Positions 8,179-38,331 of a stretch of DNA of 64,000 bases are shown here, piece by piece. Made by a program: the position numbers and the translations under genes. The first letter of the stretch is position 1. Every line of letters begins with the position of its first letter. Origin of the DNA: Streptomyces aurantiacus (GTDB lineage Bacteria > Actinomycetota > Actinomycetes > Streptomycetales > Streptomycetaceae); assembly GCF_027107535.1 (NCBI RefSeq), contig NZ_CP114283.1, forward strand, positions 186,001 to 250,000. Reading direction: 5' to 3'. The notes under the pieces are model-generated. The model searched no databases and was not told the DNA's origin. It saw nothing but the letters and a program-made list of their open reading frames with translations.

Positions 8179-8223
8179 GAGCGGGTGACGAGAATCGAAC
8201 TCGCACTCTCAGCTTGGGAAGCT
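8179..8223 (-). repeat. Att repeat A: 3' half of tRNA-Gly(CCC)
   Basis: Forty-five bp identical to 15295-15339 and to 38260-38304. On the minus strand it covers the anticodon loop TTCCCAA, the T-arm and the acceptor end of tRNA-Gly; the 5' half of the tRNA is missing. The sequence just beyond (8224-8260) also resembles that beyond copy B, sharing CTGACCTGCG, as expected if both are attR sites of related elements. Confidence 0.88.
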
Positions 8224-8482
8224 ACGGCGCCTGGGCAGGCTCAACGCATCTGACCTGCGCAGATGCCTTCTCCCTGTGGTGGCCGTGTGGGACAGGAGGC
8301 GCCTCTGTTCACTGTGGTTGCCCGCCCTTGGGGGCACGCGGCGGGCACGGAGAGACAGAAAGGGCAGCCGGCCGCCGACGCAGCTCGTGGCGCGTCCGGG
8401 GAGCCCGACTCGCAAGCTGCTACCTGGCCTCGATGTGCGGTCGCGATCACACCTGTCTGCCCCTGGTGGCGGAGCGTCGCAG

Positions 8483-11197
8483 TCACAGCCACCGGACCCT
8501 CCTCGTCACCCGGGTCACGACCGTCGAGTAGCCGATGCCGACCAGGAGGGAGACGAACAGGGCAGCGAGCGGGAAGTCCTCCTGGAGGTAGGGATAGACC
8601 TGATAGTGCGTCAGATAGATGTAGAGGGAACTGCTTGCCAGGACGCCTGCGAGCGCGTTGAGCGGGCCGAGGCCGGGCAGGACCGGTACCCAGATCAGCA
8701 GCCCCAGACCGACGATCACGATGCCCGTGCGCAGGGGCTGGTCCTGGAACAGGCCGGGCACGGTGAGCAGCAGCACCGCCGTCAGCAGCGCCCGCTGCCG
8801 TACGGTGTCGGCCCGTGCGGCCGCCCATCCCAGCGTGAACAACCAGAAGACCACTGTGGGGCTGAGGTGGGGGTGCGCGGGCGCCAGGTCCAGCAGGTCG
8901 TAGCGGCCGATGAGGCCTATGGCCGTGAGTGCCAGCGGGACGCCGAACGCGTACCGCCGTTCCAGCCGGTCCAGCAGCGGCACGGCCATGAGGGCAGCGA
9001 GGACGACAAGGAAGTGGACCAGGGCCTCCACGAACCAGTAGGCCCGGTCGAAGCGGTCGTTCCCCGGGGAGAGCAGGCTGTTGAGCAGTACGGCGTTGGC
9101 CGGGTCGTAGACGTCGGTCAGGAGCACCGCTCCCGTGATCCACGCCATGCTCGGTACCGCGATGCGGGCGATGCCGCGCCACAGGTGCCGGACGCGCTCC
9201 CGGCGTACGGCGTCGGTCAGATGGAAGCGGGCGAAGTTGTAGCCGGCGGCGCAGATGAGGATGTGGGCGAAGCCCTTGATCTCGAAGAGCCGGATGTGCG
9301 AGCCGACGATGAGGACGATCCCGACGGCGCGCAGCGCGATGCCGGTCTCCAGCGTGCGGCGGGTCCGCCACGACTCCGGGCTGGTCCAGGCGCGCAGCGT
9401 CCTGCGGAGTCCCGGGGGTGGCGGGGCCCGCCACGGTTCCCGCCCGCCTTCGCCGTCTGCGGCCCCTCGCGTTCCTTCGGTTGTGGGCGCCGCCACGGCG
9501 CGCAGCTCGCGGATCGTCCTCCTGTGCCAGTCGGCGGGCAGATGGCCCAGGGCCTCCTCCAGACGCAGGGACATCTCGACGTAGCACAGGGAGTCACCGC
9601 CGAGGCCGACGAAGCTGCTGTCCTCGGTGACGTCGGCGTGGTCGAGGATCTCCGCGTAGAGACGGCGGAGGTCCTGACCCGGGCCGGGTGTCTCCTCGTC
9701 CGCCGGGCACGTCAGTCGCCGTACGGCCTCGTAGTCCGGCTTGCCCGTGGCCAGGCGAGGGAGCCGGGCGAGGACCCGGACCCGTACGGCGCGGGGCGGA
9801 AGCCCGCACTCCTGGGCCACCAGCCGCCTGATCCGTGCCTGGTCACCGGCATCTCCGAGGGCGGCGACCGAGAGCGCCTCCCCGTCCCCGGCGCAGTACG
9901 CCGTGACCCCGCGCTGCTCCAGGAGGGACTCGACGCGCTGGGGGTCGATGCGCAGCCCGAGGATCTTCGCGAAGCGGCTGCGGCGGCCCACGATCTCGTA
10001 GAGCCCGTCGGGCGCGCGCCGGGCGAGGTCTCCGGTGTGCAGTTCCTCCACGGTCCGGCCGAGGGCGAGGTCGGCCGGGCTCTCGGCGTATCCGAGCATC
10101 ACGTTCGGTCCCGAGTAGACCAGCTCACCGGTGTCCGGGTCGTGTCCCTCGACCGGCCGCAGCCGGAAGGAGCCGCCGGGTATCGGCACGCCGACGGCCT
10201 CGGGGCGCTCGGCGGCCAGGTGCGGCGGGAGGTAGGCCATGCGGGCCGTGGCCTCGGTCTGTCCGTACATGACGAAGAGCTGCCAGCCCGAACGGCGCCC
10301 CGACTCGGCGTACCGGGTCACGCGTTGCGGCGCCAGCCGCCCCCCGGCCTGGGTGACGCGGCGCAGGTGCGGCAGTTCCATCCGCTCGAAGCCGACCCGG
10401 TCGAGCAGGTCGAAGGTGTACGGCACTCCTGCCAGTGAGCTGCCGCGCCCGGCGCGGAACTCGTCCCAGAAGGCGGCGTCGGACACCGACCGTTCGGTGA
10501 GGATCAGCCCCGCGCCGCGCAGCAGATGACTGTGGAGGACGGAGAGGCCGTAGCAGTAGTGCATGGGGAGGGTGGTGGCCGCGCGGTCGGTGTCGGTGAT
10601 GTCGAGGTAGGCGGCGATGGACTCGGCGTTGGCCTGGACGTTCTCGTGCGAGAGCCGGACCAGTTTGGGCGAGCCGGTGGAGCCGGAGGTGCTGAGCAGC
10701 AGGGCGAGGTCCGGGTGGAGGACGTGGGCGCTCTCGGGATGCCTTTCGTCGAGGGTCCATGTCCCGCGGGCATCCGGACGCGCCACCACGTCGGGGGAGT
10801 ACGCGTCCGTCAGTGAGCGGAGGGTGCTCTCGTTGTCGCCGGGGACGAGCAGGACGGGGTGACCGGCGGACAGAGCGGCCAGATACGTGATGAGGGCATC
10901 GGTCTGATTGGCCCCCGCCAGCAGCACCAGCCGCCGTACGGGCCCGAGGCGCTCGGCGGTCGCGGCCACCCGCTCGGCCAGCTCGCGGTACGACAGCTGT
11001 CCCGTCGGCGTGATGAGTGCGACGCGGTCGCCGTACGCCGCGAGTCCACGCGCGAACGGTACGCGGTTCGGGTCTTCGTGCGGCACCGGAGGTGCGCTCG
11101 GGACAGCGGACGGGCGAGGCGTCGCCGTTGGGTGGGGAGCCGGAACCGGCGCACGCCCGGGAGACGGAATCGAGAGGGACTTGGATGGGTAAGGCAT
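8483..11197 (-). CDS. Adenylation-carrier protein-acyltransferase fusion, iron-regulated
   Basis: A 904-residue three-domain protein. After a Pro-rich leader, an AMP-binding domain (about residues 40-510) shows LLLSTSGSTGSPKLVRLSHEN in parts (A3-type loop), YGQTEATARMAY, the GDLARRAPDGLYEIVGR block and a C-terminal PRLATGKPDYE with the expected catalytic Lys. A carrier domain follows with the phosphopantetheine Ser in GLGGDSLCYVEMS (about residue 550). From ~620 on there are about ten hydrophobic helices with acyltransferase-3/OatA-like features (SHIRLFEIKG, AYWFVEALVHFLVVL). The likely logic is activation of a carboxylic acid, loading on the carrier and transfer by the membrane domain; substrates are unknown. 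The iron box at 11249 lies between it and the divergent iron transporter. Confidence 0.85.
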   Translation of the reverse strand: MPYPSKSLSIPSPGRAPVPAPHPTATPRPSAVPSAPPVPHEDPNRVPFARGLAAYGDRVALITPTGQLSYRELAERVAATAERLGPVRRLVLLAGANQTDALITYLAALSAGHPVLLVPGDNESTLRSLTDAYSPDVVARPDARGTWTLDERHPESAHVLHPDLALLLSTSGSTGSPKLVRLSHENVQANAESIAAYLDITDTDRAATTLPMHYCYGLSVLHSHLLRGAGLILTERSVSDAAFWDEFRAGRGSSLAGVPYTFDLLDRVGFERMELPHLRRVTQAGGRLAPQRVTRYAESGRRSGWQLFVMYGQTEATARMAYLPPHLAAERPEAVGVPIPGGSFRLRPVEGHDPDTGELVYSGPNVMLGYAESPADLALGRTVEELHTGDLARRAPDGLYEIVGRRSRFAKILGLRIDPQRVESLLEQRGVTAYCAGDGEALSVAALGDAGDQARIRRLVAQECGLPPRAVRVRVLARLPRLATGKPDYEAVRRLTCPADEETPGPGQDLRRLYAEILDHADVTEDSSFVGLGGDSLCYVEMSLRLEEALGHLPADWHRRTIRELRAVAAPTTEGTRGAADGEGGREPWRAPPPPGLRRTLRAWTSPESWRTRRTLETGIALRAVGIVLIVGSHIRLFEIKGFAHILICAAGYNFARFHLTDAVRRERVRHLWRGIARIAVPSMAWITGAVLLTDVYDPANAVLLNSLLSPGNDRFDRAYWFVEALVHFLVVLAALMAVPLLDRLERRYAFGVPLALTAIGLIGRYDLLDLAPAHPHLSPTVVFWLFTLGWAAARADTVRQRALLTAVLLLTVPGLFQDQPLRTGIVIVGLGLLIWVPVLPGLGPLNALAGVLASSSLYIYLTHYQVYPYLQEDFPLAALFVSLLVGIGYSTVVTRVTRRVRWL

Positions 11198-11248
11198 GGG
11201 GCGCGCCCTTTCTGCGGCAACGTCCGCTAAGCACTGAACCCTTGACGA

Positions 11249-11267
11249 TTAGGCAAGCTTTACCTTA
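11249..11267. promoter_or_regulatory. DmdR/IdeR-type iron box
   Basis: TTAGGCAAGCTTTACCTTA fits the 19-bp actinobacterial iron box pattern (TTAGG, central AG/CT, CCT-A at the end) with few deviations. It sits between divergent genes: 51 nt upstream of the minus-strand fusion enzyme and 113 nt upstream of the transporter operon. A TTGACG hexamer at 11242-11247 begins just before it, so a bound repressor would cover the rightward promoter. Both transcripts are expected to be derepressed under iron limitation. Confidence 0.78.
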
Positions 11268-11380
11268 TTCATAACATGGTCATAATCAAGCCACGGCAAA
11301 CGCACAGGATCGCTTCGTCCTTCGCTCTCCACCGACATGACCGCGGTGGCGTTCAGGCGAGCCCTGCAGGAAGGCACACC

Positions 11381-12427
11381 ATGCGACGCCCCTCGGTTCG
11401 CCGGATGACCGCGCTGGTCACAGCCGGTCTTTTGCTCCCCGCCCTCGCGGCGTGCGGCTCCGACGACAAGGACGGCGGGGACGACGGCGCCGGCTCCTCC
11501 CTCGTCATCTACTCCGGCCGCAACGAGAAGCTGGTCAAGCCACTTCTGGACAAGTTGGAGAAAGCCGTCGGTACCGAGGTCGAGGTGCGGTATGGCGACA
11601 GCGCGGAGCTCGCCGCCCAGATCCTGGAGGAGGGTGACCGCACCAAGGCCGGGCTGTTCTTCTCCCAGGACGCCGGCGCGCTGGGCGCCCTGTCCAAGGA
11701 GGGCATGCTGCAGAAGCTGCCCGCAGCCACCCTCGACCAGGTCGACGAGGTGTACCGGGGATCCGACGGTGACTGGGTCGGCCTCTCGGGACGTGTCCGC
11801 GTCATCGCGTACAACCCGGACAAAGTCACCGAGGACGAGGTCCCGGACAGCGTCTTCGACGTGGTGAAACCGGAGTGGAAGGGCAAGGTCGGTTTCGCGC
11901 CGACCAACGCCTCCTTCCAGGCGTTCGTCACCGGTATGCGCGTCCTCAAGGGCGACGACACCACCCGCCAGTGGCTGGAGGACCTCAAGGCGAACGGCGC
12001 CAAGACCTACGCCCACAACCTCGCCACCCTGGACGCCGTCGAGGCCGGCGAGGTCTCCCTCGGCCTGGTCAACCACTACTACTGGTACGAGCGGGTCGCC
12101 GAGAAGGGCGAGGACAAGGTCAACTCCAAGCTGCACTTCCTGCCCGGCAAGGACCCCGGCGCGCTCATCAACGTCGCCGGAGCGGGCATCCTCAAGGACA
12201 GCGGGCAGAGCGAGACCGCTCAGAAGGCCGTGGACTACCTGCTGTCGAAGGACGCGCAGACCTACTTCGCGGACACGACCAAGGAGTACCCGCTGGCCGC
12301 GGGCGTCACCAGCACCGTCGAGGGCCTGCCGCCGTTCGAGTCGCTCCAGTCGCCCGACATCGACCTCGGCAAGCTGGAGTCCCTCCAGGAGACACTGGCC
12401 ATGCTCCAGGACGCCGGACTGGTCTGA
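11381..12427 (+). CDS. Ferric iron ABC transporter substrate-binding lipoprotein (FbpA/FutA type)
   Basis: A 348-residue lipoprotein. The ATG at 11381 follows GGAAGG with 6-nt spacing. The signal peptide ends in a lipobox (LPALAACG), so the mature protein is anchored at Cys. The start of the mature domain (LVIYSGRNEKLVKPLLDKLE) and the block KAGLFFSQDAGALGALSKEG are characteristic of FbpA-like ferric-binding proteins, and the tyrosine-rich HYYWYERV matches the Fe-coordinating Tyr pair of that family. It is the first gene of a three-gene operon downstream of the iron box. It binds ferric ion, possibly with a synergistic anion, and hands it to the permease. Confidence 0.9.
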   Translation: MRRPSVRRMTALVTAGLLLPALAACGSDDKDGGDDGAGSSLVIYSGRNEKLVKPLLDKLEKAVGTEVEVRYGDSAELAAQILEEGDRTKAGLFFSQDAGALGALSKEGMLQKLPAATLDQVDEVYRGSDGDWVGLSGRVRVIAYNPDKVTEDEVPDSVFDVVKPEWKGKVGFAPTNASFQAFVTGMRVLKGDDTTRQWLEDLKANGAKTYAHNLATLDAVEAGEVSLGLVNHYYWYERVAEKGEDKVNSKLHFLPGKDPGALINVAGAGILKDSGQSETAQKAVDYLLSKDAQTYFADTTKEYPLAAGVTSTVEGLPPFESLQSPDIDLGKLESLQETLAMLQDAGLV

Positions 12428-12433: not shown

Positions 12434-14011
12434 GTGCGCACATCGCCGTCCATGGCCGGAAGGACACGTACGCCGTCCCGCCCGCCACGGAAAACACGTA
12501 CGGCCGGCAGCAGGCCACCCCTGGTCCTGCTCGTCCCCGCCTGCGTGGCCGCCCTGTTCGCCCTGCTGCCCCTCGGCTACCTCGCCGTCCGCGCCCTGGA
12601 GCGCGGCCCGGCCTTCGCCTGGGACGTCGTCGCCGACGAACGCACCCTGGACCTCCTCGGCCGCAGCCTCGGCCTGACCGTCGTCGTCGTGGCGGCCTGC
12701 CTCGTCCTGGGGATCTCGCTGGCCTGGCTGACCGTGCGCACCGCACTGCCCGGAGCCCGCGCCTGGTCGGTGCTGGCCACGCTGCCGCTGGCCGTGCCCA
12801 GCTACGTCGCCGCGTTCGCCTGGCTGTCGGCCGAGCCGGACCTCGCCGGGTTCGGCGGCGCCGCGCTCGCCCTGACGCTGGTCAGCTTTCCCTACGTCCA
12901 GCTGCCGGTCGCCGCCGCGCTGCGAGGCATCGACCCGGCACAGGAGGAGGCCGCCCGCTCCCTCGGCCACGGGCCGCTGCGGACCTTCCTCCGGGTCACG
13001 CTCCCGCAGTTGCGCCCGGCGGCCGCGGGCGGGGCGCTGCTCGTCGCGCTGTACGTGCTCTCCGACTTCGGCGCGGTGTCACTGATGCGGTACGACACCT
13101 TCACCCGGGCCATCCACACCTCGTACCGCGCCTCCTTCGACCGGACACCGGCCGCCGCCCTCAGCGTGGTGCTGGTCGTGATGACCATCGCGCTGGTGGC
13201 CGCCGAAGCCCGTACGCGCGGACGCGCCGGGCACGCCAGGACCGGTACGGGCACCGCCCGCCCGGCGGTCCCGTTCGCCCTCGGCCGGTGGCGGCCGCTC
13301 GCCCTGCTGTGGTGCGCGGCGGTGGTGGCCGTGGCCGTCGCCTTCCCGCTGGGCACCCTCGGGTACTGGCTGGCCGTCGGCTCCTCGGCCACCTGGGACC
13401 TCGGCGGACTCGCCGAGACGGCCTGGGCCACGCTCGGCGTCGCGGCGGCGGGCGCCGGTCTCACCACCGTCCTCGCCCTGCCGGTCGGGGTGATCGCCGC
13501 GCGGCACCGGGGGCGCGGCGCCCGTCTGCTGGAGCAGGCGGCGTACGCGGGGCACGCGCTGCCCGGCATCACCGTTGCGCTCGCCCTGGTGTTCTTCGCC
13601 GTGCGCTACGCCTACCCGCTCTACCAGCAACTCCCGCTGCTGATCTGCGCGTACGCGGTCCTCTTCCTCCCGGTCGCGGTGGCCGCGACCCGCGCGGCCG
13701 TGCTCCAGTCGGCGCCCGTCCTGGAGGACATGGCCCGCTCGCTCGGACGACGGCCGTGGCAGGTGCTGCGCGAGGTGACCGTGCCGCTGGCCGCGCCCGG
13801 CGTGGCGGCCGGGGCCGCGCTCACCTTCGTGGTCTGCATGAAGGAGCTGCCCGCCACCCTCCTCCTGCGCCCCACCGGCATGGACACCCTCGCCACCCGG
13901 CTGTGGACCGAGACCGGCGCCGGATCCTTCGCGGCAGCCGCCCCGTACGCCGCCGTGCTGATCCTGCTGGCCGCCGTCCCCTCGTACCTCCTAGGCAGGC
14001 ACCGGACATGA
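12434..14011 (+). CDS. Ferric iron ABC transporter permease (FbpB type, two fused domains)
   Basis: A 525-residue polytopic protein starting at GTG 12434, 6 nt after the binding-protein stop. It contains two tandem permease halves of the BPD_transp_1 type, each with an EAA loop: EEAARSLGHGPLRTFLRVTLP in the first half and LEDMARSLGRRPWQVLREVTVP in the second. This fused arrangement is standard for FbpB/HitB/AfuB permeases. The stop overlaps the ATPase start (ATGA at 14008-14011), indicating translational coupling. Confidence 0.9.
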   Translation: MRTSPSMAGRTRTPSRPPRKTRTAGSRPPLVLLVPACVAALFALLPLGYLAVRALERGPAFAWDVVADERTLDLLGRSLGLTVVVVAACLVLGISLAWLTVRTALPGARAWSVLATLPLAVPSYVAAFAWLSAEPDLAGFGGAALALTLVSFPYVQLPVAAALRGIDPAQEEAARSLGHGPLRTFLRVTLPQLRPAAAGGALLVALYVLSDFGAVSLMRYDTFTRAIHTSYRASFDRTPAAALSVVLVVMTIALVAAEARTRGRAGHARTGTGTARPAVPFALGRWRPLALLWCAAVVAVAVAFPLGTLGYWLAVGSSATWDLGGLAETAWATLGVAAAGAGLTTVLALPVGVIAARHRGRGARLLEQAAYAGHALPGITVALALVFFAVRYAYPLYQQLPLLICAYAVLFLPVAVAATRAAVLQSAPVLEDMARSLGRRPWQVLREVTVPLAAPGVAAGAALTFVVCMKELPATLLLRPTGMDTLATRLWTETGAGSFAAAAPYAAVLILLAAVPSYLLGRHRT

Positions 14012-15060
14012 ACGAGATGAACGCACTGCACGTCGAGGGGCTCACCAAGTCCTACGGAGCCGGGGAGCCGATCCTGCGCGGCCTCGAACTCACCGTCCCC
14101 GCAGGCGCGTTGGCGGCGGTCCTCGGGCCCTCCGGCTGTGGCAAGACCACCATGCTGCGGGTCGTCGCCGGGTTCCTGCGCGCAGACGAGGGCACCGTCC
14201 GACTCGGCGACCGGCTCCTGAGCGGGCCCGGCGTCCACCTCCCGCCGGAACGGCGCCGCATCGGCATCGTGCCCCAGGAAGGCGCCCTCTTCCCACACCT
14301 GAGCGTGGCCCGCAACGTCGCCTTCGGACTGACCGGCGCGGACCGCTCCGAACGACGGCGCGTCACGGACGAGATGCTCGAACTGGTCGGCCTCGCCGGA
14401 TACGGCGACCGCATGCCGCACGAGCTGTCCGGAGGCCAGCAACAGCGCGTCGCCCTGGCCCGCGCGCTCGCCCCGCGACCCGGGCTCGTGCTGCTCGACG
14501 AGCCGTTCAACGCCCTCGACAGCGCACTGCGGGCGGGAGTGCGGGCGGACGTACGGTCCGCGTTGCGGGCCACCGGCGCCACGGCCGTCCTCGTCACCCA
14601 CGACCAGCAGGAAGCCCTGTCCACCGCCGACCTCGTCGCCGTCGTACGAGACGGCCGGGTCGCCCAGTGCGCCACCCCGCAGGACCTCTACCGGCGCCCC
14701 GCGGATCCCTGGATCGCCGGCTTCGTCGGCGACGCCGTCCTGCTCCCCGGCACCGTAGAAGGCGACGGCACGGCCCTGACCGCCCTGGGCGTCGTGCCCC
14801 TCGCCGTCCCGCCCGACGGGCTCCGCGCCGGCACGGTCCTGCTCCGCCCGGAACAGTTGCTCCTGACCGACACGGACGCCGACGGCTCGGTCAGGGGCAC
14901 GGTCACCGACGTCTCGTACTACGGCCACGACGCCATGGTCACCGTGGCCGTCCAGGGCCATGAAACCCCGGTCGGCATCCGCGTCGCGGGCCCCCTGTCC
15001 GTCCGCCCGGGGGAGGAGATGGGCGTCCGCGTCGTGGGTGAGGCCGGCCTCCACCCGTAG
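14008..15060 (+). CDS. Ferric iron ABC transporter ATP-binding protein (FbpC type)
   Basis: A 350-residue ABC ATPase. Walker A is GPSGCGKTT, the Q-loop lies in VPQEGALFPHL, the ABC signature is LSGGQQQR, Walker B is LVLLDEPFNALD and the switch His lies in VLVTHDQQEAL. The C-terminal ~110 residues form a TOBE-like regulatory domain (VLLRPEQLLLT). The ATG at 14008 overlaps the permease stop. It energises uptake by the preceding two products and completes the operon, which ends 200 nt before the att repeat B. Confidence 0.92.
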   Translation: MNEMNALHVEGLTKSYGAGEPILRGLELTVPAGALAAVLGPSGCGKTTMLRVVAGFLRADEGTVRLGDRLLSGPGVHLPPERRRIGIVPQEGALFPHLSVARNVAFGLTGADRSERRRVTDEMLELVGLAGYGDRMPHELSGGQQQRVALARALAPRPGLVLLDEPFNALDSALRAGVRADVRSALRATGATAVLVTHDQQEALSTADLVAVVRDGRVAQCATPQDLYRRPADPWIAGFVGDAVLLPGTVEGDGTALTALGVVPLAVPPDGLRAGTVLLRPEQLLLTDTDADGSVRGTVTDVSYYGHDAMVTVAVQGHETPVGIRVAGPLSVRPGEEMGVRVVGEAGLHP

Positions 15061-15260
15061 CCACGGTTCACCACGGCTTTCGCCTCTGAGGTTCCCCCGC
15101 TGCGCGAGCCCGAAGGCCGCCTCGGCAATGTCGCGTGCGCAATCCGTGGGGGCGGTCGGACTCAGCCCTGGGACGCATGTGCCCCGAGGCCGAGTCCACG
15201 CCAGGGGCGACGTACCCGTCCTGGGGCACGGCACCCTCAAATTGGACTAGTACAACAAAC

Positions 15261-15286
15261 AAACCCCAGGCCACTGACCTGGGGTT
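15261..15286 (-). terminator. tRNA-type terminator hairpin beside att copy B
   Basis: AAACCCCAGG pairs with CCTGGGGTTT around a short loop, T-rich when read on the minus strand. It is very similar to the hairpin at 8146-8173 beside att copy A. Confidence 0.6.
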
Positions 15287-15294
15287 TCGTGATG

Positions 15295-15339
15295 GAGCGG
15301 GTGACGAGAATCGAACTCGCACTCTCAGCTTGGGAAGCT
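15295..15339 (-). repeat. Att repeat B: 3' half of tRNA-Gly(CCC), left end of the AICE
   Basis: This 45-bp sequence is identical to copies A and C and shares with C the two bases before it (TG). It lacks the 5' half of the tRNA. It is the distal junction (attR) of the AICE whose integrase and intact tRNA lie 23 kb to the right. Confidence 0.88.
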
Positions 15340-15480
15340 AAGGGCACCTGGGGCTTGCTCCAAGACTGACCTGCGGCTGAGCGGTGTCGGCGCCTGGCGG
15401 GAGGTCGGCTGGTTCACCGGTGTTCCCCGTGGTTCCCCGCACGATCTGGCACGGGTCTGGCACGACCTCTCCGTCCCGAA

Positions 15481-16405: not shown

Positions 16406-17881
16406 ATGCCCGATGCGGATGGGCTAGAGGCGGTAGTAGCACCACGTGCCTCAGCGTTGATGGACTCGCTTCGTGCCTTCGGCTACGACATGGCTACTGC
16501 GCTTGCTGATCTCGTTGACAACAGTCTTTCAGCCTCGGCTCGCGAAGTACGTGTGGAATTCTGCACCGATGAGGGTGCTGCCTGGGTTGCAGTGGTCGAC
16601 GACGGCGATGGTATGAGCGAGAGAGAGCTTCATGAAGCTGTCCGCTTCGGTGGGAGCGGGCCGACGATGGAGCGGAGAATTGGCGATCTTGGGCGTTTCG
16701 GCCTTGGGCTGAAGACGGCGTCTCTGTCCCAGTGTCGTGTGCTCACCGTCCTGTCCCGCACGCCCCAAGGTCTCGTGTGTCGAACATGGGACATCGACCT
16801 GGTCCGTGCTGCTGACGACTGGCGAGTCCGTGTTGTGGCCGACGAAGAAGCCGTTGGTATCGCGCACAAGATCGGCTTCGAGGGGGCAGGCACGATGGTC
16901 CTGTGGAGGCGACTCGATCACGCGGGTGAGGGCGCAGCTCTGGCTCGGAAACTGGGGCAAAGCCGTAGCCGGCTGAGGATGTGGTTTCACCGCTACATCG
17001 CGCGTGGCAGGCTCCGCCTCACAGTGGGTGGTCACGTGTTGGCGCCGTGGGACCCGTTTTGCCGCCAGCACATGGCGACGCAGGACTTGGGAACGGAGCG
17101 ACTGGAGGCCGGCGGGCAGGTTCAGGTAATTCCATATGTCCTGCCCCACCCGTCCCGGCTGAGCGAGGCCGAGATCAAAGACAGTGCGGGACCGCGTGGT
17201 TGGAACGCACAGCAGGGCTTTTACGTTTACCGCGGGGACAGGATGGTCTCCGCTGGCGGTTGGCTCGGACTGCCTGACATGGTGATCGCGCCGCAGACTC
17301 GCTTGGCGAGAATCGAGATCTCCATGGATCCCGCTTCGGATCACCTTTGGCAGGTGGACGTACGCAAGTCCCGGGTACACCCGCCTGCCGGTCTCGAGGA
17401 GGATCTCACGCGACTCGCCGCGGCTGCCCGTGAGGCATCGGTGGCCGTTTTTCGTCGTAGGGCCACAATTACGGCCGGACGACAGGGACGTGATCGTGAG
17501 CTCACGTTCGGGTGGATTCAGGAACGCAGGCACGGCACGTCCCGGTACCTGGTTAATCGTCAGCATCCTGTTGTACAAGCAGCTCTGACCGCGGGTCCAA
17601 GTGCTCATGTCGAAGCCCTCCTCCGCATGGTGGAGCGAACTGTCCCGGTTGGCGTGATTGCTATCGAGGCTGAGAACAACTTGGGCCGCATGCCCCACGC
17701 GGCGCTAGAAGGCGTGGAGGAGGCCGAAGCAAGGGCAGACCTAGTGGTGATGCTTGCGGCTCTGCCCGATGATGCCCAAGCTCGGGCAGCTGTCGTTCGC
17801 GCCCTGAAGTCTGTGGAGCCGTTTAACCGATTCCCCGACATGGTCACAGAGATCGTCCGTCAGATGAACCCGGGAGTATGA
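16406..17881 (+). CDS. MutL/MORC-like GHKL ATPase of a Mza-type defence cluster
   Basis: A 491-residue GHKL-fold ATPase. The Bergerat motifs are clear: motif I ALADLVDNSLS (Asn/Asp), motif II VVDDGDGMSE (DxGxG) and motif III GRFGLGLKTASLSQ. This is the fold of MutL, Hsp90 and MORC proteins. The C-terminal region is unassigned. Such ATPases associate with Z1 helicases and DNA methylases in restriction-like systems, and this gene with the next four reproduces the Mza composition (MutL, Z1, DUF4420, AIPR, methyltransferase). The ATG has GGGGGA 6 nt upstream. Its stop overlaps the Z1 gene start (ATGA). Likely role: an ATP-gated switch controlling effector action on foreign DNA; this is inferred. 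Confidence 0.85.
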   Translation: MPDADGLEAVVAPRASALMDSLRAFGYDMATALADLVDNSLSASAREVRVEFCTDEGAAWVAVVDDGDGMSERELHEAVRFGGSGPTMERRIGDLGRFGLGLKTASLSQCRVLTVLSRTPQGLVCRTWDIDLVRAADDWRVRVVADEEAVGIAHKIGFEGAGTMVLWRRLDHAGEGAALARKLGQSRSRLRMWFHRYIARGRLRLTVGGHVLAPWDPFCRQHMATQDLGTERLEAGGQVQVIPYVLPHPSRLSEAEIKDSAGPRGWNAQQGFYVYRGDRMVSAGGWLGLPDMVIAPQTRLARIEISMDPASDHLWQVDVRKSRVHPPAGLEEDLTRLAAAAREASVAVFRRRATITAGRQGRDRELTFGWIQERRHGTSRYLVNRQHPVVQAALTAGPSAHVEALLRMVERTVPVGVIAIEAENNLGRMPHAALEGVEEAEARADLVVMLAALPDDAQARAAVVRALKSVEPFNRFPDMVTEIVRQMNPGV

Positions 17882-23446: not shown

Positions 23447-23595
23447 CGGGCCGCCAGCAGGAGAGCCGAGTGGGGCGCCATTTCCGTTCCAGCACCGACG
23501 GAAGGCCCCAGGTCAGGAAGTCGGGAGACCTTGCCTGACTGGGTGGATGTATGGTCTCCTGGTGCTCGTTGTTGTCATTAAACGGAGGTTGGACA

Positions 23596-27241: not shown

Positions 27242-27415
27242 GATTCTCTCCTTGCTGGAGTTCTCGCCATCACCCCCTCGTCCCTGTCCTCTCAGGGTGC
27301 GCTGTCCCCTGGCAGGTCGCAAGTTGCCCTGCTTCCTCACATTCTCAACGAACGAGGGCGGATGGAAATGGGCCCGTGGCATGCATCCATACCTTGATGA
27401 CGAGGTCGGCGTAGC

Positions 27416-28156: not shown

Positions 28157-28435
28157 TCAGCCATCACCTGGGACTAGACACTTCGGCTGGGCCTGATCGG
28201 TGCTCGTCGTGCTTTCGGGCGTCGTGTTCGCTGTGGTCTTGCGAGCCTGTTCGGCGGCTCGTTGAAGAGCTAGGGCCACCTGGTCCGCGCTGTCGGCAGA
28301 CAGCAGGATCTCTTGCGTCCACAGGATCGACAGCCTGATGTCGCCGTTTAGCAGGTTGGTCGCGACGTCGACCTCGGTGCCGTTGCCCGTCACATCCTGC
28401 ACGTTCAGATCAAGGTCGCTGCTGAATGCGCTCAT
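28157..28435 (-). CDS. Small hypothetical protein of the DUF1152 operon
   Basis: A 92-residue acidic, Ser/Thr-rich protein with no recognised family (LDLNVQDVTGNGTEVDVAT, then a helix DSADQVALALQRAAEQARK). The ATG overlaps the stop of the upstream DUF1152 gene (ATGA at 28432-28435), so the two are translated as a coupled pair, which supports its being real despite its size. Confidence 0.65.
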   Translation of the reverse strand: MSAFSSDLDLNVQDVTGNGTEVDVATNLLNGDIRLSILWTQEILLSADSADQVALALQRAAEQARKTTANTTPESTTSTDQAQPKCLVPGDG

Positions 28436-29541: not shown

Positions 29542-29582
29542 GCGGTCAGCGTACGGGGTCGAGGGTTGACCACTCACTCTAT

Positions 29583-29605
29583 AGTGGCTAGAGGCCATAG
29601 CCACT
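29583..29605. promoter_or_regulatory. GntR operator O1, AGTGGCTA inverted repeat
   Basis: AGTGGCTA and TAGCCACT flank a 7-bp spacer, 17 nt upstream of the first GntR gene and 41 nt upstream of the divergent DUF1152 gene. Half-sites AGTGGC/GCCACT recur twice at 30401-30440, so a single regulator, most likely the adjacent GntR protein, binds all three. Confidence 0.7.
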
Positions 29606-29622
29606 TGGACGAGGAGGGTGAA

Positions 29623-30363
29623 ATGCCTCAGATCGAGGAGGCTCAGCCGAAGTATCTCCAGATCGCGCACTTCATCCGCGATCAGATCCTTCGGGGAGAC
29701 CTTAGGCCAGGGGACGAGGTGCCCTCGGAGCGGCAGTTGGCGGCGGACTGGAAGGTGTCCCGGCCTACGGCTGCACGATCGCTGGAAGCGCTGAGTCATC
29801 AGGGGCTCGTCGAGAAGCGCCAGGGATCGGGCACGTACGTGCGCAGCCTGGCGGTCAACCGGCGGGCGCGTGAGCTGTACGGCCGGGCCCGGCAGACCGG
29901 GAAGATCTACACGCCCGGTGAGTACGCGGTGATCACGTCGGCTGGTTGGCTGGATGCGCCGGATCATGTTGCCGAAGCCTTGGGGCTGGTCAAGGATCGT
30001 CGGGCCGTGCACCGGCGGAGGGTGACCAGCAACCAGGACGGGCCCATCACGCTGTCTACCTCGTGGTTCGCTCCGGACGTTGCCCAGCGTGCGCCCAAGC
30101 TCCTGGACCCTGAGCGGATTCAGGAGGGGACGCTGATGTACGTCGAGAACATGACGGGGCGCCAGGGCAGCTATGCCGAGGACCGTATGTGCGCCCGGAG
30201 CGGCACCGACGAGGAGGTCTCGGACCTGCAACTCGACGCTGGATCAGCTGTTCTGATCGTTCATCATGTCGTCTTCGACCTCCAGGACCGGCCGTTGGAG
30301 TTCGCCGAAGCCACCTATCCCCCGCATCGCTGGGCCTTCGAACAGGGCTACCCGCTCGCCTGA
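29623..30363 (+). CDS. GntR family transcriptional regulator (first of two)
   Basis: The ATG at 29623 follows GAGGAGGG and gives 246 residues. An N-terminal winged helix (about 8-75: PKYLQIAHFIRDQILRGDLRPGDEVPSERQLA in parts, KVSRPTAARSLEALSHQGLVEKRQGSGTYV) is followed by a UTRA-type effector domain (about 90-245). It resembles the KorSA-type repressors that keep AICE transfer and replication silent. Palindromes upstream of itself, of the DUF1152 operon and of the next gene point to autoregulation and control of the neighbouring operons. Confidence 0.88.
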   Translation: MPQIEEAQPKYLQIAHFIRDQILRGDLRPGDEVPSERQLAADWKVSRPTAARSLEALSHQGLVEKRQGSGTYVRSLAVNRRARELYGRARQTGKIYTPGEYAVITSAGWLDAPDHVAEALGLVKDRRAVHRRRVTSNQDGPITLSTSWFAPDVAQRAPKLLDPERIQEGTLMYVENMTGRQGSYAEDRMCARSGTDEEVSDLQLDAGSAVLIVHHVVFDLQDRPLEFAEATYPPHRWAFEQGYPLA

Positions 30364-31168: not shown

Positions 31169-31897
31169 ATGGCGTATGAAGTGGAGCCACCGAAGTACGT
31201 GCGCCTCGCGCAGACCCTTCAAGGTCGCATCGAGGACGGCACCTACCCGCCCGGCACACGGGTGCCAAGTGAAAACCAACTGGTGCAAGCCTTCGCGATG
31301 TCCCGCCCAACCGTCGTGCGAGCGCTGGAGCTGCTGAAGCGTGACGGCTGGCTGGAGTCCCGACAGGGATACGGCACGATCGTGCGGGGTCGCCCCGAGC
31401 TTGTCGAGCAGCGGGACCGCCGCGGCCGTGAGGCGCTGGAGCGCGACGAGTCACAAGCGCCGGGCCGACTGGTTGAGGTCAACCGCGTGCCCGTTCCGGC
31501 TCGGATCGCCTCGGCGCTCGGACTGCCCAAGCGGGCGCAGGTTCTCATGCGCCGGTTCCTGGTCGAGGAGGACGGCGAAGCGGTCGAGTTGGTCTCGTCG
31601 TACTTCCCCGCCGGCCTGGTCGAGGGAACCGAGCTGGAGACTTCTGAAGCACTGAGCGGCAGCGTCCGCGAGCATCTTGAGACGCGGAAGAAAGTGCGCC
31701 TCGACCACGTGACGGAACGGGTCTCCGCGAGACTGCCCGACAGTGGCGAGACTGAACTTCTGGAGCTCCCTGAGGGTGTTCCCGTCCTCAGTGTGCTGGT
31801 CATCGCCTGCGACACCTCGGGGCAGGCCTTGCAGGTCGTCGAGGTGCTGCTGCCTGCCGACCGGCAAGAGCTGGAAGACACCTACCGACTGAACTAA
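31169..31897 (+). CDS. GntR family transcriptional regulator (second, KorSA-like)
   Basis: A 242-residue regulator. Residues ~8-75 form the winged helix (PPKYVRLAQTLQGRIEDGTY, then VPSENQLVQAFAMSRPTVVRALELLKRDGWLESRQGYGTIV); the remainder is a UTRA domain. It lies directly upstream of the transfer and replication genes and between matching operator-like repeats, the position of KorSA, which represses the activator/tra/rep/int genes of pSAM2. The operator set differs from that of the first GntR, so the two probably control separate transcripts. Confidence 0.87.
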   Translation: MAYEVEPPKYVRLAQTLQGRIEDGTYPPGTRVPSENQLVQAFAMSRPTVVRALELLKRDGWLESRQGYGTIVRGRPELVEQRDRRGREALERDESQAPGRLVEVNRVPVPARIASALGLPKRAQVLMRRFLVEEDGEAVELVSSYFPAGLVEGTELETSEALSGSVREHLETRKKVRLDHVTERVSARLPDSGETELLELPEGVPVLSVLVIACDTSGQALQVVEVLLPADRQELEDTYRLN

Positions 31898-32019: not shown

Positions 32020-32370
32020 GTGCGTGTGATCCGTATTGACGCCTCGTCCGCAACGATCCTGCTCACCGAAGCGCCGTCGCCGAAGGTGCGCGACCGGCAG
32101 ACCGGTGAGATCGCAAAGGACACCGTGAGCGGCGAGGCACTGATGACCGTCGGCGTCGTCTTCATCGACGAGGGGGAGTCGTCGCTGGTCCAGGTCACCA
32201 TCCCTGAGAGCGGTGTGACGGACGGGCTGTCGGTCGGTGCTCCGGTCTCCCTGCCGGGCCTGATCGCCCGGCCGTGGGAGAGCGTGTTCAACGGCCAGCA
32301 GCGGCACGGCATCGCCTACCGGGCCACTGCCATCACTTCGGGTGCCTTCCCGGTCGCCCAGGCGGGCTGA
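32020..32370 (+). CDS. SCO3933-family AICE regulatory protein
   Basis: The GTG at 32020 has AGAAGGAG 7 nt upstream and gives 116 residues. The sequence (VRDRQTGEIAKDTVSGEALMTVGVVFIDEG in parts, then GAPVSLPGLIARPWE) matches the small conserved protein that precedes the translocase gene in many Streptomyces AICEs and is annotated as SCO3933-family regulatory protein. It is probably beta-rich. It is first in the run of transfer and replication genes, separated from tra by only 5 nt. Confidence 0.75.
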   Translation: MRVIRIDASSATILLTEAPSPKVRDRQTGEIAKDTVSGEALMTVGVVFIDEGESSLVQVTIPESGVTDGLSVGAPVSLPGLIARPWESVFNGQQRHGIAYRATAITSGAFPVAQAG

Positions 32371-32375
32371 TCGAC

Positions 32376-33749
32376 GTGACCGACCTGGTGACGTTGGCCG
32401 AGCTGGGCGGGCCGCTCGCTGCGATAGGCGGCGCGGCCTACGCCCGGCACGCCCACCCGGCGGCGTACTGGTCCACGGTCGGGCTGCCGGTCTCGGTGGT
32501 CCGGCTGATGGCCTCGTACTCCTCGACCATGGACGCGTGCGGCCTGACGGTCGCGCCGTCCCGGCTGCGGGTACTGGCTGTCAAGGCCACGACTCGCCGT
32601 GAGGTCCGGCCCGTGCCTCCGCGTCGGGGCATGATCCGGCCCACCACGACCGGTCTGCGGCTTCGGCTGCGGTTGGCTCCGGGCCAGGAACCTGCGGACG
32701 TGGCTGCCTCGGCTGAACGGCTTCGGCATGCCTGGGGCGTTCACGCCGTGTACGTGCGGGACGTGAAGCCCGGGGTCGTGGAACTGCGGCTCGTCGGCTT
32801 CGACGTACTGCGCAAGGTGCGGATGCCTCGCCGGATCGACGGCGGGTTGCTACGGGTGCCGGTGGCGTTGCGGCAGGACGCGACCGCGTTCGTACGGGAC
32901 TACCGGGCCGTACCTCATGAACTGGTCCTCGGCGCCACGCTGTCGGGCAAGTCCATGTTCCTGCGCAACCTCCTGACCGGGCTGGCGGCTCAGCCGGTGG
33001 TCCTGGTCGGCATCGACTGTAAGCGCGGTGTTGAGCTGGCGCCGTTCGCCGCCCGGCTCTCCGCGCTGGCGACCGACCCGGAGCAATCGGCCGAGCTGCT
33101 GCCCGTGCTCGTGAAGGAAATGGAGGACCGCTACGACCTGATCAAGGCCCGGCAGGGCATCGCCCCTGGGACCCCGGACGAGTCGATTACGTCGGACATC
33201 TGGGGTCTGCCCGAGGGCGAACGCCCGGCTCCCATCGTGCTGTTCATCGACGAGGTGGCCGAACTCTTCCTCATCGCCACGCGGAAGGAGGAGGAACGGC
33301 GGGACGAGATGGTCACTCAGCTGATCCGGCTCGCTCAGCTCGGTCGCGCCGCCGGTATCTACCTGGAGGTCTGCGGACAGCGGTTCGGCGCCGAGCTTGG
33401 CAAGGGAGCGACCATGCTCCGTGCTCAGCTCTCCGGCCGGGTCTGCCACCGCGTCAACGACGAAGCCTCCGCCAAGATGGCGCTCGGCGACATCGCCCCG
33501 GAAGCTGTCGGCGCTGCCTGCGCCATCGCTGCCGAGTTGCCCGGTCTGGCCGTCGTCGGCGACACCTCTGGCGGCTGGTCTCGCATCCGCACTCCGTACA
33601 TGACCCTCGCCGACGCTGCGGCCACCTGTCGTGAGACGGCGCATCTCGCCCCCGACGTACCAGCGCTCGTGCCCTTCCGGCCGTACGTCCCGCCGGTCCC
33701 CGTGACGGTCGCCGAACCGGTGGCCACACCGCGCCCGGTCACCGACTAG
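32376..33749 (+). CDS. FtsK/SpoIIIE-type DNA translocase (TraSA/TraB)
   Basis: A 457-residue P-loop translocase beginning at GTG 32376. Walker A is LGATLSGKSMFLRN (about residues 186-199), Walker B is PIVLFIDEVAELFL, and a sensor region LIRLAQLGRAAGIYLEVCGQRF follows. Streptomyces elements use one such hexameric protein to move double-stranded DNA between mycelia. The N-terminal half lacks the four-helix FtsK membrane domain; only a weak hydrophobic stretch is visible, as usual for Tra proteins of AICEs. Confidence 0.9.
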   Translation: MTDLVTLAELGGPLAAIGGAAYARHAHPAAYWSTVGLPVSVVRLMASYSSTMDACGLTVAPSRLRVLAVKATTRREVRPVPPRRGMIRPTTTGLRLRLRLAPGQEPADVAASAERLRHAWGVHAVYVRDVKPGVVELRLVGFDVLRKVRMPRRIDGGLLRVPVALRQDATAFVRDYRAVPHELVLGATLSGKSMFLRNLLTGLAAQPVVLVGIDCKRGVELAPFAARLSALATDPEQSAELLPVLVKEMEDRYDLIKARQGIAPGTPDESITSDIWGLPEGERPAPIVLFIDEVAELFLIATRKEEERRDEMVTQLIRLAQLGRAAGIYLEVCGQRFGAELGKGATMLRAQLSGRVCHRVNDEASAKMALGDIAPEAVGAACAIAAELPGLAVVGDTSGGWSRIRTPYMTLADAAATCRETAHLAPDVPALVPFRPYVPPVPVTVAEPVATPRPVTD

Positions 33750-34453: not shown

Positions 34454-34471
34454 CTCCGGAGGACTTTCACC

Positions 34472-34878: not shown

Positions 34879-34894
34879 CCGCCGAGGAGCTCCC

Positions 34895-35089: not shown

Positions 35090-35102
35090 GAGGAGTCCCG
35101 CC

Positions 35103-35363: not shown

Positions 35364-35495
35364 CCGGCCGCCGGGGCGGCAACAACGCCGCCAAGCATCC
35401 CGCCGCCCCGGGGCCGCTCCTCCCAACCGCAGAAACAGCCGAAAGGAACCCCCATCATCACCCGGCAGACTCCGCCCCCGCTGGCGGAACTCTCC

Positions 35496-36797
35496 ATGCT
35501 GGCCTCCCTCGGCACTCTGCCCGAGCTGGCCCGCCAACTGTCCGGCCTGGGCGGCTGCACCCGCCCCGTACGCCTCGACGGCCACCGCACCGAATACGAG
35601 ATCAACAAGACAACCGGCGAGATCGGCCGCACCCTGCATCACCTGGACTCAGCGACCCTCCCGGCCGGTCATCTCCTCGTCCGCTGCAACAACCGTCGCG
35701 CAACCCGCTGTGCGGCCTGCGCGGAGACGTACCGCCGCGACACCTACCACCTGATCACCGCCGGACTCCGCGGCGGCAAAGGCACCCCCGAACAAGTCGG
35801 CACCCATCCGCGGGTGTTCGCGACCTTCACCGCTCCGGGCTTTGGGCCGGTACACAACCGCCCGTCCAGTGCTCGTGCCTGCCGTTGTGGCGCCCGGCAC
35901 GACCAGGAGGACGCTGCTCTGGGCACACCCCTCGACTCCGATAGGTACGACTACGAAGCGTCCGTCCTCTGGAACGCCCATGCCGGGGCTCTGTGGCGCC
36001 GGTTTTCCATCTACCTGCGCCGTGAGGTCGCCAAGCGTGCCGGACTCACCCAACGCGCCTTCCGTGAGCACGCGCGCATCTCGTTCGCCAAGGTCGCCGA
36101 GTACCAGAAGCGCGGTGCCGTCCACTTCCACGCGGTTATCCGCCTCGACGGCCCCGAGGGCGGCGACACTGCACCGCCTGCCTGGGCCACCGCCGAGTTG
36201 CTCACCGACGCCATCGGAGCCGCCGCCCGCGCGGCACAAGTCGACGGCCCGGTCCTCGACGGCCGTGCCCACACCTTCACCTTCGGTCGTCAGCTCGACG
36301 TCCGACCGATCCGAACCGCCGACTTCGACGGCGGCCAGGAGCTGACCGAACGGGCCGTAGCCGCGTACATCGCCAAGTACGCCACCAAGGGTGCCGAGAC
36401 AGCGACCGGAACCCTCGACCGACCGATCCGCTTCCTCGCCGAGCTGGCCCAAGCCAAGCTCACCGACCATGCCCGACGCATGATCCGCACCGCCTGGACC
36501 CTCGGCGCACGCCCCGAGCTGGCAGACCTCCGCCTCCGGGCCTGGGCTCACATGCTCGGCTTCCGCGGCCACTTCTCCACGAAGTCCCGCCGCTACTCGA
36601 CCACCCTCGGTGCCCTCCGCACCGCCCGCGCCGACTGGCGTCGCGAGCAAGCCAACCCGGCACCGCAGAACACCGAGGAAACGACGCTCGTCCTCGCCCA
36701 CTGGGTCTTCGCGGGAACCGGCCTCAGTGCCGGTGAGACCTGGCTCGCCGCATCCCTCGAACCCGCTCCCGGAACGGAAGGAGAACCGACCCAATGA
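35496..36797 (+). CDS. repSA: RepSA-like rolling-circle replication initiator
   Basis: At least 433 residues. A CXXC-type zinc site (RCNNRRATRCAACAETYRR) is followed by FATFTAPGFGPVH, an HUH-like AVHFHAVIRL block and ERAVAAYIAKYATK, where a Tyr is the probable nicking residue. This is the pSAM2 Rep family, which nicks the excised element for replication. The only ATG (35496) has no ribosome binding site; a good GAAAGGA lies 6 nt before an in-frame ATC at 35454, giving ITRQTPPPLAELSM at the N-terminus, so the true start is probably that ATC or a mutated start codon. The stop overlaps the xis ATG. A second, diverged fragment of such a gene lies at 1334-1453. Confidence 0.88.
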   Translation: MLASLGTLPELARQLSGLGGCTRPVRLDGHRTEYEINKTTGEIGRTLHHLDSATLPAGHLLVRCNNRRATRCAACAETYRRDTYHLITAGLRGGKGTPEQVGTHPRVFATFTAPGFGPVHNRPSSARACRCGARHDQEDAALGTPLDSDRYDYEASVLWNAHAGALWRRFSIYLRREVAKRAGLTQRAFREHARISFAKVAEYQKRGAVHFHAVIRLDGPEGGDTAPPAWATAELLTDAIGAAARAAQVDGPVLDGRAHTFTFGRQLDVRPIRTADFDGGQELTERAVAAYIAKYATKGAETATGTLDRPIRFLAELAQAKLTDHARRMIRTAWTLGARPELADLRLRAWAHMLGFRGHFSTKSRRYSTTLGALRTARADWRREQANPAPQNTEETTLVLAHWVFAGTGLSAGETWLAASLEPAPGTEGEPTQ

Positions 36798-37006
36798 CCG
36801 AGCGCTACCTGTCCGTCGACCAGGTCGCCGAGCTGCTCGGTACGACCGTCCGCTTCCCTCGGCGCCTGATCGAGGAACGGCGCATCCGCTACGTGAAGGT
36901 TGGCCGGCACGTCCGTATCCCGGAGAGCGCGGTCGAGGAGTTCATCGCATCCCGCATGGTGCATCCGCTGAGGCGCCCCCGTGCCCGCTACAGGAGGGCT
37001 GCCTGA
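36794..37006 (+). CDS. xis: Excisionase (MerR-type HTH)
   Basis: A 70-residue helix-turn-helix protein: YLSVDQVAELLGTTVRFPRRLIEERRIRYVKVGRHVRIPESAVEEFI in parts, followed by an Arg-rich tail. It overlaps the rep stop (ATGA) and the integrase start (TGATG), the classical rep-xis-int coupling of AICEs. It would direct the integrase towards excision. Confidence 0.88.
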   Translation: MTERYLSVDQVAELLGTTVRFPRRLIEERRIRYVKVGRHVRIPESAVEEFIASRMVHPLRRPRARYRRAA

Positions 37007-38208
37007 TGGCCAACAGCAGAGGCCGACGAAGGCGGTTCGGGGCCATCAGGAAGCTGCCTTCCGGCCGTTACCAGGCGCGCTACCCGGGTCCTGACGGCGT
37101 GATGCGACCGGCCCCGGTCACCTTCGAAACGACGGCGGACGCTGACGACTGGCTTGCTGAAAAGCAGACGGAGATCCGGCGTGGTCAATGGCGGGACCCC
37201 GAAGCAGGCGCGGTGGGCTTCCGCGTCTACGCAGGGAAGTGGGTCGAGGAGCGGGAACTCGCGCCTCTCACTCAGGACCTCTACCGGTATCTCCTCGACA
37301 AGTACCTGTTGGGCAGCTTTGCCGAGTCCGACTTGGACGAGATCACCGCGCCACACGTCCGTGAGTGACGGACAGCCCAGCTGCGGGCCAACGGCGGCAA
37401 GACGATGACCGCCAAGGCGTACCGGCTACTCAAGGCCATCATGGAAACCGCCGTTGATGACGAACTGATCCAGCGCAACCCGTGCCGGATCAAGGGCGCT
37501 GGCAAGGAGAGGGCTGCTGAGCGGCGCATCGCCACCGTTGTCCAGGTCGACTCGCTCGCCGAAGCCATCGGCATGCGATGGCGGCTCATGGTCTACCTCG
37601 GCGCGTACGGTCCGATGCGGCCCGAGGAACTGGCTGGCCTCCGTCGTCGGGACGTCGACCTCGACCCCCTGCGGATCCGCGTTCGCCTCGCTGAGCCGGA
37701 GCGGATGAACGGACGACGCGTCCAGGGCGACACCAAGTCTGAGGCCGGAACCCGGACTGTGATCCTTCCCGCGTTCCTCCGCCGGGAGCTCCGGTGGCAC
37801 CTGGAGTCGTACGCCCAGCCGGGTCCCGATGGGCTGCTCTTCGTCGGCGAGAAGGGTGCCCCCTTTCGCCGCAGCTCCTTCGGCCGAAAGTGGAGGAAGG
37901 CACGTGAGATCGTCGGCATGCCGGAGGGCTTCCGGTTCTACGATCTCCGGCACACCGGACACACGCTGTCCACGCGCTCGGGTGCCACGCTCAAGGACAC
38001 GATGGTCCGGGCCGGGCAGTCCTCGGAGAAGGCCGCGCTGATCTATCAGCACTCCGACGACGAGCGACAGCAGGAAGTTGCTGCCGGACTCGACGCGACC
38101 GTCCGCAAGGCACGCCAGGAAGTGCAGCAAGCTGCGGCCGTGCCAGATGAAGACGCCCATGATCCAGACGATCAGCGTTCTGGCATGAATCTGGCACGCG
38201 GCGAGTGA
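37006..38208 (+). pseudogene. int: Tyrosine integrase interrupted by an in-frame TGA
   Basis: A single reading frame of 401 codons holds a complete integrase except for codon 121, TGA (37366-37368), in the context VRE-stop-RTAQL where Trp (TGG) is expected. Upstream lie the AP2-like arm-binding domain and SAM-like core-binding start; downstream lies the catalytic domain with Arg in GPMRPEELAGL, HTxH-type YDLRHTGHTL and Tyr in AALIYQHSDDE. Restart at ATG 37405 would give only the C-terminal 267 residues. The gene adjoins the intact tRNA-Gly. Unless the stop is read through, or it is a sequencing error, integration and excision need help from elsewhere. Confidence 0.88.
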
Positions 38209-38225
38209 TCACAGCGGACAGCAAA

Positions 38226-38252
38226 AAGGCCCGGGTCGATGACCTGGGCCTT
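38226..38252 (-). terminator. Terminator of tRNA-Gly
   Basis: AAGGCCCGGGTC pairs with GACCTGGGCCTT around a short loop; on the minus strand it is followed by TTTTT. It lies 6 nt past the CCA end of tRNA-Gly. Confidence 0.8.
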
Positions 38253-38257
38253 TGTCA

Positions 38258-38331
38258 TGGAGCGGGTGACGAGAATCGAACTCGCACTCTCAGCTTGGGA
38301 AGCTGATGTTCTACCACTAAACTACACCCGC
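38258..38331 (-). tRNA. tRNA-Gly (anticodon CCC), intact
   Basis: On the minus strand a full cloverleaf is present: acceptor GCGGGTG/CACCCGC, D-arm around TAGTTTAGTGGTAGAA, anticodon stem TCAGC/GCTGA with loop TTCCCAA (anticodon CCC), T-arm with GTTCGATTC, discriminator T and encoded CCA. Length is 74 nt. The AICE integrase gene ends 50 nt away. The 3' half doubles as the att core. Confidence 0.95.
38260..38304 (-). repeat. Att repeat C inside the intact tRNA-Gly
   Basis: The 45 bases from the anticodon loop to the acceptor end, identical to copies A (8179-8223) and B (15295-15339). This is the integrase-proximal junction, where insertion restored the tRNA. Confidence 0.9.

Follow-up and report, generated by a model that had tools for sequence, protein, structure and literature searches.

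The tRNA-Gly(CCC) Locus

The window described here is a stretch of 64,000 nucleotides from Streptomyces aurantiacus (contig NZ_CP114283.1, positions 186,001 to 250,000), in which three full or partial copies of a tRNA-Gly(CCC) gene, named A, B and C, bound 30 kb of DNA. They divide it into a 7.1-kb unit (A-B) with a predicted iron-uptake operon and a 23-kb unit (B-C) with the gene content of an actinomycete integrative and conjugative element (AICE). The locus is probably a site at which mobile units of both kinds stack up behind a single tRNA gene.

The copies are identical across a 45-bp core (A 8179-8223, B 15295-15339, C 38260-38304), and chance falls far short of explaining three exact matches of this length at a single locus. 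ARAGORN finds a single tRNA in the window, a tRNA-Gly(CCC) at 38258-38331 on the minus strand, with the core of C inside it; the repeats are the 3′ half of this gene and only C is part of a complete tRNA. Each core sits in an 82-bp repeat that includes the terminator; measured against B, the repeat is 87% identical in C and 71% in A. Read along the tRNA strand, all three cores run into a hairpin (-20.0 to -21.0 kcal/mol). Searching the whole 9.9-Mb genome with 151 bp spanning C recovers only A, B, C and one distant 75% match. The right arms of A and B also align (score 56 over 120 bp; shuffle mean 27.5), at a score reached by 0/500 shuffles. The left arms are unlike, with scores reached by 427/500 (A-B), 192/500 (B-C) and 417/500 (A-C) shuffles. 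The sequence-only reading of this DNA had pointed out the identical 45 bp, the single full tRNA, the hairpin at each copy and the likeness beyond A and B, and all of these observations hold.

The copies differ in the 3′ CCA of the tRNA, which is encoded by B (15293-15294) and C (38258-38259), not by A (8177-8178). Incoming elements may alter whether the tRNA gene encodes CCA, and relatives are mixed in this respect. As a marker of incoming units the encoded CCA was rejected: CCA-less tRNAs occur in genomes G001, G011 and G032, which also hold extra copies.

The Predicted Iron-Uptake Unit

In A-B the ligase/acyltransferase gene is divergent from the genes for the binding protein, permease and ATPase (Table 1). 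Which substrate would this transporter carry? Ferric-iron uptake, in line with the iron uptake proposed by the sequence-only reading, is the likely role, because 25 of the 28 PDB matches of the binding protein (E up to 1e-5) are named as iron-binding or iron-transport proteins and NCBIfam models of other substrates match it below their cut-offs only. The remaining three matches are named sfuA, YfuA and family 1 solute-binding protein.

The genes fill A-B nearly edge to edge, and its likeness to B-C is restricted to the ends. A-B yielded no trace of an integrase (best E 1.7), the DNA of the AICE backbone (window 30001-38222) has no match there, and tblastn with Rep, Xis, Tra, GntR and two further backbone proteins gave chance-level matches only. 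The best of these, with Rep (26.5% over 132 residues, E 0.036), is taken as chance. The unit is a candidate cis-mobilizable element (CIME): it lacks integrase and transfer genes, and its flanking attachment (att) sites match the specificity of its neighbor, with identical 45-bp cores and end motifs. A single integrase may have acted on the ends of both units.

The AICE and Its Interrupted Integrase

A RepSA-type initiator, an FtsK/SpoIIIE-type protein, and an Xis and tyrosine integrase beside the tRNA att site are all present in B-C, which by gene content is a pSAM2-type AICE with Mza-like defense cargo. Homologues of MzaB, C, D and E stand in a row (PADLOC) and are followed by the C5 methyltransferase; no MzaA-named row is among the PADLOC matches listed (25 of 58). 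The G+C content of this region is below that of its flanks. The cargo also holds a 35-bp inverted repeat (27680-27714/27999-28033, 94% complementary, 284 bp spacing), possibly a small insertion.

The integrase frame extends to within about 50 bp of the tRNA and is interrupted by an in-frame TGA. Related integrases at the same tRNA are open in G147 (88% identical) and G120 (84%), and the next best one elsewhere in the window's genome is 46% identical. Because of the TGA the AICE has probably lost the ability to move by itself, barring a sequencing error at the stop or an integrase provided in trans. For the same reason, mobilization of A-C as one 30-kb unit, which had been put forward from the sequence, is doubtful via the resident integrase.

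Table 1. Features of the tRNA-Gly(CCC) locus in the window (window coordinates).
Feature	Position	Strand	Evidence
Copy A: terminator hairpin and 45-bp tRNA-Gly 3′ half (8179-8223)	8142..8223	-	
Left end of A-B: CTGACCTGC (8250-8258) and paired box (8308-8325, one mismatch)	8250..8325	+	
AMP-ligase/carrier/acyltransferase fusion, 904 aa	8483..11197	-	Pfam PF00501, PF00550, PF01757
FbpA-type ferric-iron-binding protein	11276..12427	+	PF13343; best PDB match E 1.8e-76, iron-binding protein
Two-domain ATP-binding cassette (ABC) permease	12434..14011	+	PF00528, 2 stretches
ABC ATPase, start approximate (frame 11875-15060)	14011..15060	+	PF00005, PF08402
Copy B: right-end motif of A-B (15251-15258, one mismatch), terminator and core (15295-15339)	15251..15339	-	
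Left end of AICE: CTGACCTGC (15366-15374) and TTCCCCGTGGTTCCCCGC (15423-15440)	15366..15440	+	
Mza-like defense set: MzaB, C, D, E and C5 methyltransferase	16406..25458	+	PADLOC; Pfam
Thermolysin-type (M4) metallopeptidase	25544..27382	-	
DUF1152 protein	28432..30231	-	
GntR/UTRA regulator	31169..31897	+	
FtsK/SpoIIIE-type transfer protein	32274..33749	+	PF01580
RepSA replication initiator	35496..36797	+	PF20199 E 1.1e-152; NF041486 541.9 bits, below cut-off 700
Xis-type excisionase	36794..37006	+	TIGR01764
Tyrosine integrase frame, in-frame TGA (37366-37368); C-terminal open reading frame 37405-38208	37006..38208	+	
Copy C: right-end motif (38217-38224, one mismatch), terminator and intact tRNA-Gly(CCC)	38217..38331	-	

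Probable Stacking Across the Genus

A survey confined to tRNA-Gly(CCC) covered 63 loci, 58 congeneric and 5 outside the genus, which were picked by contig continuity and partly for the common tRNA variant or the operon and are not a random sample. Of the congeneric loci, 49 have at least 37.9 kb of left context. Within that distance, 36 of these have one or more extra copies, 22 two or more and 11 three or more, with a maximum of five; weak copies of about 16-24 nt (e.g., in G018, G051, G044, G047 and G102) are included in these counts. The 98 extra copies in the 58 congeneric loci delimit 98 segments. With a profile built from the integrase family of the window's AICE, 12 segments have a full-length integrase, 13 have integrase pieces only (the window's included) and 73 have none detected. 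All 12 full-length integrases lie in the tRNA-proximal segment, as delimited by detected copies, and the median segment length is 17.9 kb with a full integrase and 3.96 kb without integrase. Compared with the host's own tRNA over positions 4-42, 48 of the 98 copies are identical and 75 have at most two differences. Short integrase pieces also occur immediately left of internal copies, or at them, in G009 (-16758, -8989), G003, G026 and G007; these are traces of whole elements that decayed within the stack.

The segments share their ends. Just right of the copies lie CTGACCTGC (at most two mismatches; 82 of 98) and the paired box TTNNCCGNNNTTNNCCGC (at most one mismatch; 56 of 98), and both occur together at 53 of 98 copies versus 65 of 40,000 random positions. 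The pair is found in 40 of the 73 segments without integrase and in 9 of the 12 with a full-length one. A right-end motif, GACAACAA (at most one mismatch), lies ahead of 43 of the 98 copies and 40 of the 58 tRNAs, versus 0.5% of random positions. These motifs would be binding arms of the integrase or excisionase.

Counting that of the window, 30 of 199 genomes encode relatives of the iron-binding protein, and the position of these genes relative to the tRNA is known for 11 of the 29 others. In G102, a congener, the operon lies at tRNA-Gly(CCC), between copies at -20245 and -12760, and matches the window's at 85-89% nucleotide identity in three pieces (84.9% over 6.7 kb with other settings). 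The order there is iron unit, copy B′, 1.37-kb unit, AICE with open integrase, tRNA. In G007, G009, G012, G049, G057, G131, G133, G137, G143 and G163 the binding protein is encoded at least 0.59 Mb from the tRNA on the same contig; some of these ten are only 68-73% identical, and the operon neighborhood was checked in G009, G049, G143 and G163. Ligase, binding protein and permease go together in all nine relatives read (L166-L174). A tRNA copy is absent from those ~4-kb pieces, which are too short to judge because the piece from G102 also lacks one. G147 has the AICE backbone in common with the window (83.9% over 10.5 kb) and different cargo.

Short Units and Toxin-Antitoxin Genes

Segments without integrase include 26 of at most 2.6 kb. 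The scan covered 150 of their 194 open reading frames, touching 22 segments, several of which hold cassettes homologous to each other. It returned AbiEii (four members), PIN (three), PhdYefM (three), RHH (two), PHD_like, CcdA and AbiEi_2 (one each). Toxin-antitoxin families are absent among the control families listed (25 of 34) from 150 of 161 open reading frames in 25 random windows. About ten of the 22 scanned segments look like toxin-antitoxin cassettes, as assigned by homology: AbiEii in G005, G019, G053 and G057, Phd/YefM in G029, G053 and G057, PIN with a CcdA-like gene in G005 and G029, PHD_like in G057 and, as a weaker case, an AbiEi_2-like gene in G012 and G025. Other short segments have unrelated genes, e.g., PAP2, short-chain dehydrogenase, hydrolase, TetR and Uma2.

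Have these cassettes moved between species? Alignments of ten pairs sharing a unit run from copy to copy in four, miss ~90-380 bp beside the left copy in three and are incomplete in three. The copy-to-copy alignments fit units moved whole and units inherited whole equally well. Cassette identity is higher than that of dcd for G005-G053 (94 vs 86.0), G005-G019 (92.3 vs 88.0), G019-G053 (95.6 vs 91.0), G025-G012 (89.9 vs 85.1) and G025-G039 (88.4 vs 85.0), about equal for G005-G029 (86.3 vs 85.3) and G029-G057 (88.0 vs 88.5), and lower for G019-G057 (82.9 vs 91.2), G005-G057 (83.1 vs 87.2) and G029-G053 (93.5 vs 95.3). Since these values are mixed, horizontal movement is suggested, not proved. 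Cassette order is no proof of shuffling, as the orders in G005, G029, G053 and G057 can be fitted to one inherited order with losses.

Accretion and Its Alternatives

The best account, to which we give a probability of about three in four, is the accretion of an AICE behind an integrase-less, cis-mobilizable iron unit. Each incoming unit would insert at the tRNA, supply a new 3′ half and terminator, and displace the previous 3′ half outward. Unit A-B would be a CIME, a passenger with its ferric-iron ABC operon set between proper element ends, and B-C a pSAM2-type AICE, now with an interrupted integrase gene, that carries Mza-like cargo. The locus would belong to a stacking site used throughout the genus, at which an integrase goes undetected in the majority of stacked units; the passengers would have been carried by AICE-type integrases acting in cis or in trans. 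The model implies an order of insertion in which A-B would be the older unit; the sequence-only reading had said the same, and its claim fits. That reading had also proposed tandem insertion of two related elements. Tandem site-specific units at one tRNA are retained here, relatedness is not, since only the ends are alike.

Several observations weigh against this account. The left-end pair is incomplete at 45 of 98 copies, the end motif is absent from the left copy of G102, and the motifs were picked by eye on the same copies later counted. Three of the 12 full-length integrases (in G012, G023 and G025) end 3.7-7.0 kb from the tRNA; a further boundary may lie in between, where no hidden copy or motif pair was found. 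In G032 the tRNA carries an A-type terminator (98.7% over 78 bp) and the distal copy is B-like (86% over 116 bp), a pattern at odds with any simple rule by which A-type copies are invariably the earliest; comparing G032 with G000 by tblastx yielded noise only. Excision and transfer of the units are themselves predictions from sequence.

A broader form of the accretion model is more tentative, and we hold it at clearly less than even odds. The tRNA-Gly(CCC) of the genus may be a tRNA-anchored cassette array, into which AICE-type integrases load small integrase-less units with conserved recombination ends, often toxin-antitoxin genes, the tRNA being rebuilt each time and the newest unit lying adjacent to it; A-B would then be one cassette among others.

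Could A-B instead be an old AICE from which int, xis, rep and tra were deleted while the cargo was kept, as the sequence-only reading held? Integrase pieces just left of internal copies elsewhere, as in G009, attest that whole elements do decay here, and the RepSA-like match within A-B might be counted as a relic were it not at chance level. Yet A-B retains neither an integrase remnant nor backbone DNA, its operon leaves almost no room at the edges, a similar iron unit recurs in G102, and both left-end motifs are kept by more than half of the integrase-less segments. We consider such decay unlikely.

Improbable, and less credible than decay, is a single entry of A-C as one composite element with B as an internal relic. 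The matching order in G102 would agree with it, and joint as well as separate excision is reported for the tandem AICEs Fean5518/5534 of Frankia (PMC3218068). However, end motifs flank B to the left and to the right, the similar AICE of G147 follows a B-like copy that has another unit to its left, and in G120 and G030 a related full-length integrase lies behind one detected copy (19 kb of left context each).

That the repeats are ancestral duplications of tRNA fragments or products of homologous recombination, unrelated to integration, was already disfavored and is very improbable: concerted evolution is also a possible source of the near-identity of copies and host tRNA, but copy number and segment content differ between species, end motifs adjoin the copies far above the random rate, and full-length integrases sit in tRNA-proximal segments. 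Iron genes between repeats with no AICE, the arrangement that would speak for ancestral repeats, were seen in none of the relatives placed; G102, the sole one with the operon here, also has an AICE-type integrase.

The Left Edge of the Locus

How far does the stack extend? The native left neighbor of the locus is likely a csp (cold shock) gene with a DEAD-box helicase gene. G060 is a near-empty site, with 0.44 kb between csp and the tRNA and without an extra copy in 38.8 kb; G039, G058 and G007 each have a copy at 0.6-1.1 kb from csp, and G058 has another beyond the csp-helicase block. csp was found in 11 of 41 loci, twice per locus in two, and is absent from the DNA covered in the other 30. 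This edge is likely, not proved, because no copy was found near csp in seven of the 11 loci (G000, G003, G015, G020, G026, G033 and G051).

The genome of the window has 54.3 kb between csp and the tRNA. A is therefore unlikely to mark the chromosomal edge, and the 30 kb are probably the near part of a larger, roughly 54-kb variable region. To the right of csp, similarity to four relatives persists for ~0.5 kb before breaking off. Over 118 kb left of the tRNA there is no ungapped core copy besides A and B, and the paired end motif on the plus strand occurs only at these two. A decayed copy beside csp in G000 was rejected, only A and B coming within 14 of 43 mismatches (ungapped, same 118 kb). 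The DNA left of A may consist of older stacked units with erased repeats, because a relative of the DUF5933/PAP2 gene (window 12-1421) lies between two copies in G102 (-22550..-20245). The subtilase region left of A (3505-6963) is found inverted between A- and B-like copies in G147 (-23440..-19798).

Relation to Known Systems

B-C resembles pSAM2-type AICEs in its RepSA, FtsK-type Tra, Xis, tyrosine integrase, GntR regulator and insertion at a tRNA 3′ half, and differs in its interrupted integrase and Mza-like cargo. The ICESt1 family is an example of CIMEs and accretion, and the window likewise has an att-bounded unit adjoining an integrative conjugative element; here the cargo is an iron operon at tRNA-Gly(CCC), and mobilization is predicted only. 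Stacking and integrase-less units are already known, as they are reported in several papers (PMC9513070, PMC4891641, PMC3218068, PMC8369830, PMC3146451). XSAM1 is described there as a CIME beside pSAM2 (PMC4891641), and TR1/TR2 of S. scabiei as an accretion with TR1 as a CIME (PMC8369830). At tRNA-Arg, a Streptomyces population has one to three AICEs and a traB-less remnant between direct repeats; this is another tRNA and one population, and toxin-antitoxin units are not described in the available text (PMC9513070). Tandem islands of Dehalococcoides lie between copies of the end of the ssrA RNA gene, 15 of them without an integration module and suggested as possible CIMEs, but use a serine recombinase, an ssrA target and dehalogenase cargo (PMC3146451). 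The literature covered also included tycheposons (PMC10872708). Less expected is a toxin-antitoxin stack across the genus; at tRNA-Gly(CCC) such a stack was not met in the open-access literature searched, subscription papers being outside the scope.

Integron arrays are likewise rows of small integrase-less units, rich in toxin-antitoxin pairs, with the newest beside the recombinase. In contrast, the tRNA locus has att sites made of tRNA halves and integrases of AICE/phage type (Pfam, NCBIfam; no search was aimed at IntI or attC). If the accretion model is true, it would explain how single operons such as that for iron uptake, and tiny toxin-antitoxin pairs, spread between species with no recombinase of their own. 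It would also provide a defined locus and end motifs for probing cis- or trans-mobilization by AICEs, and would make the tRNA-Gly(CCC) locus a tRNA-based analogue of integron arrays.

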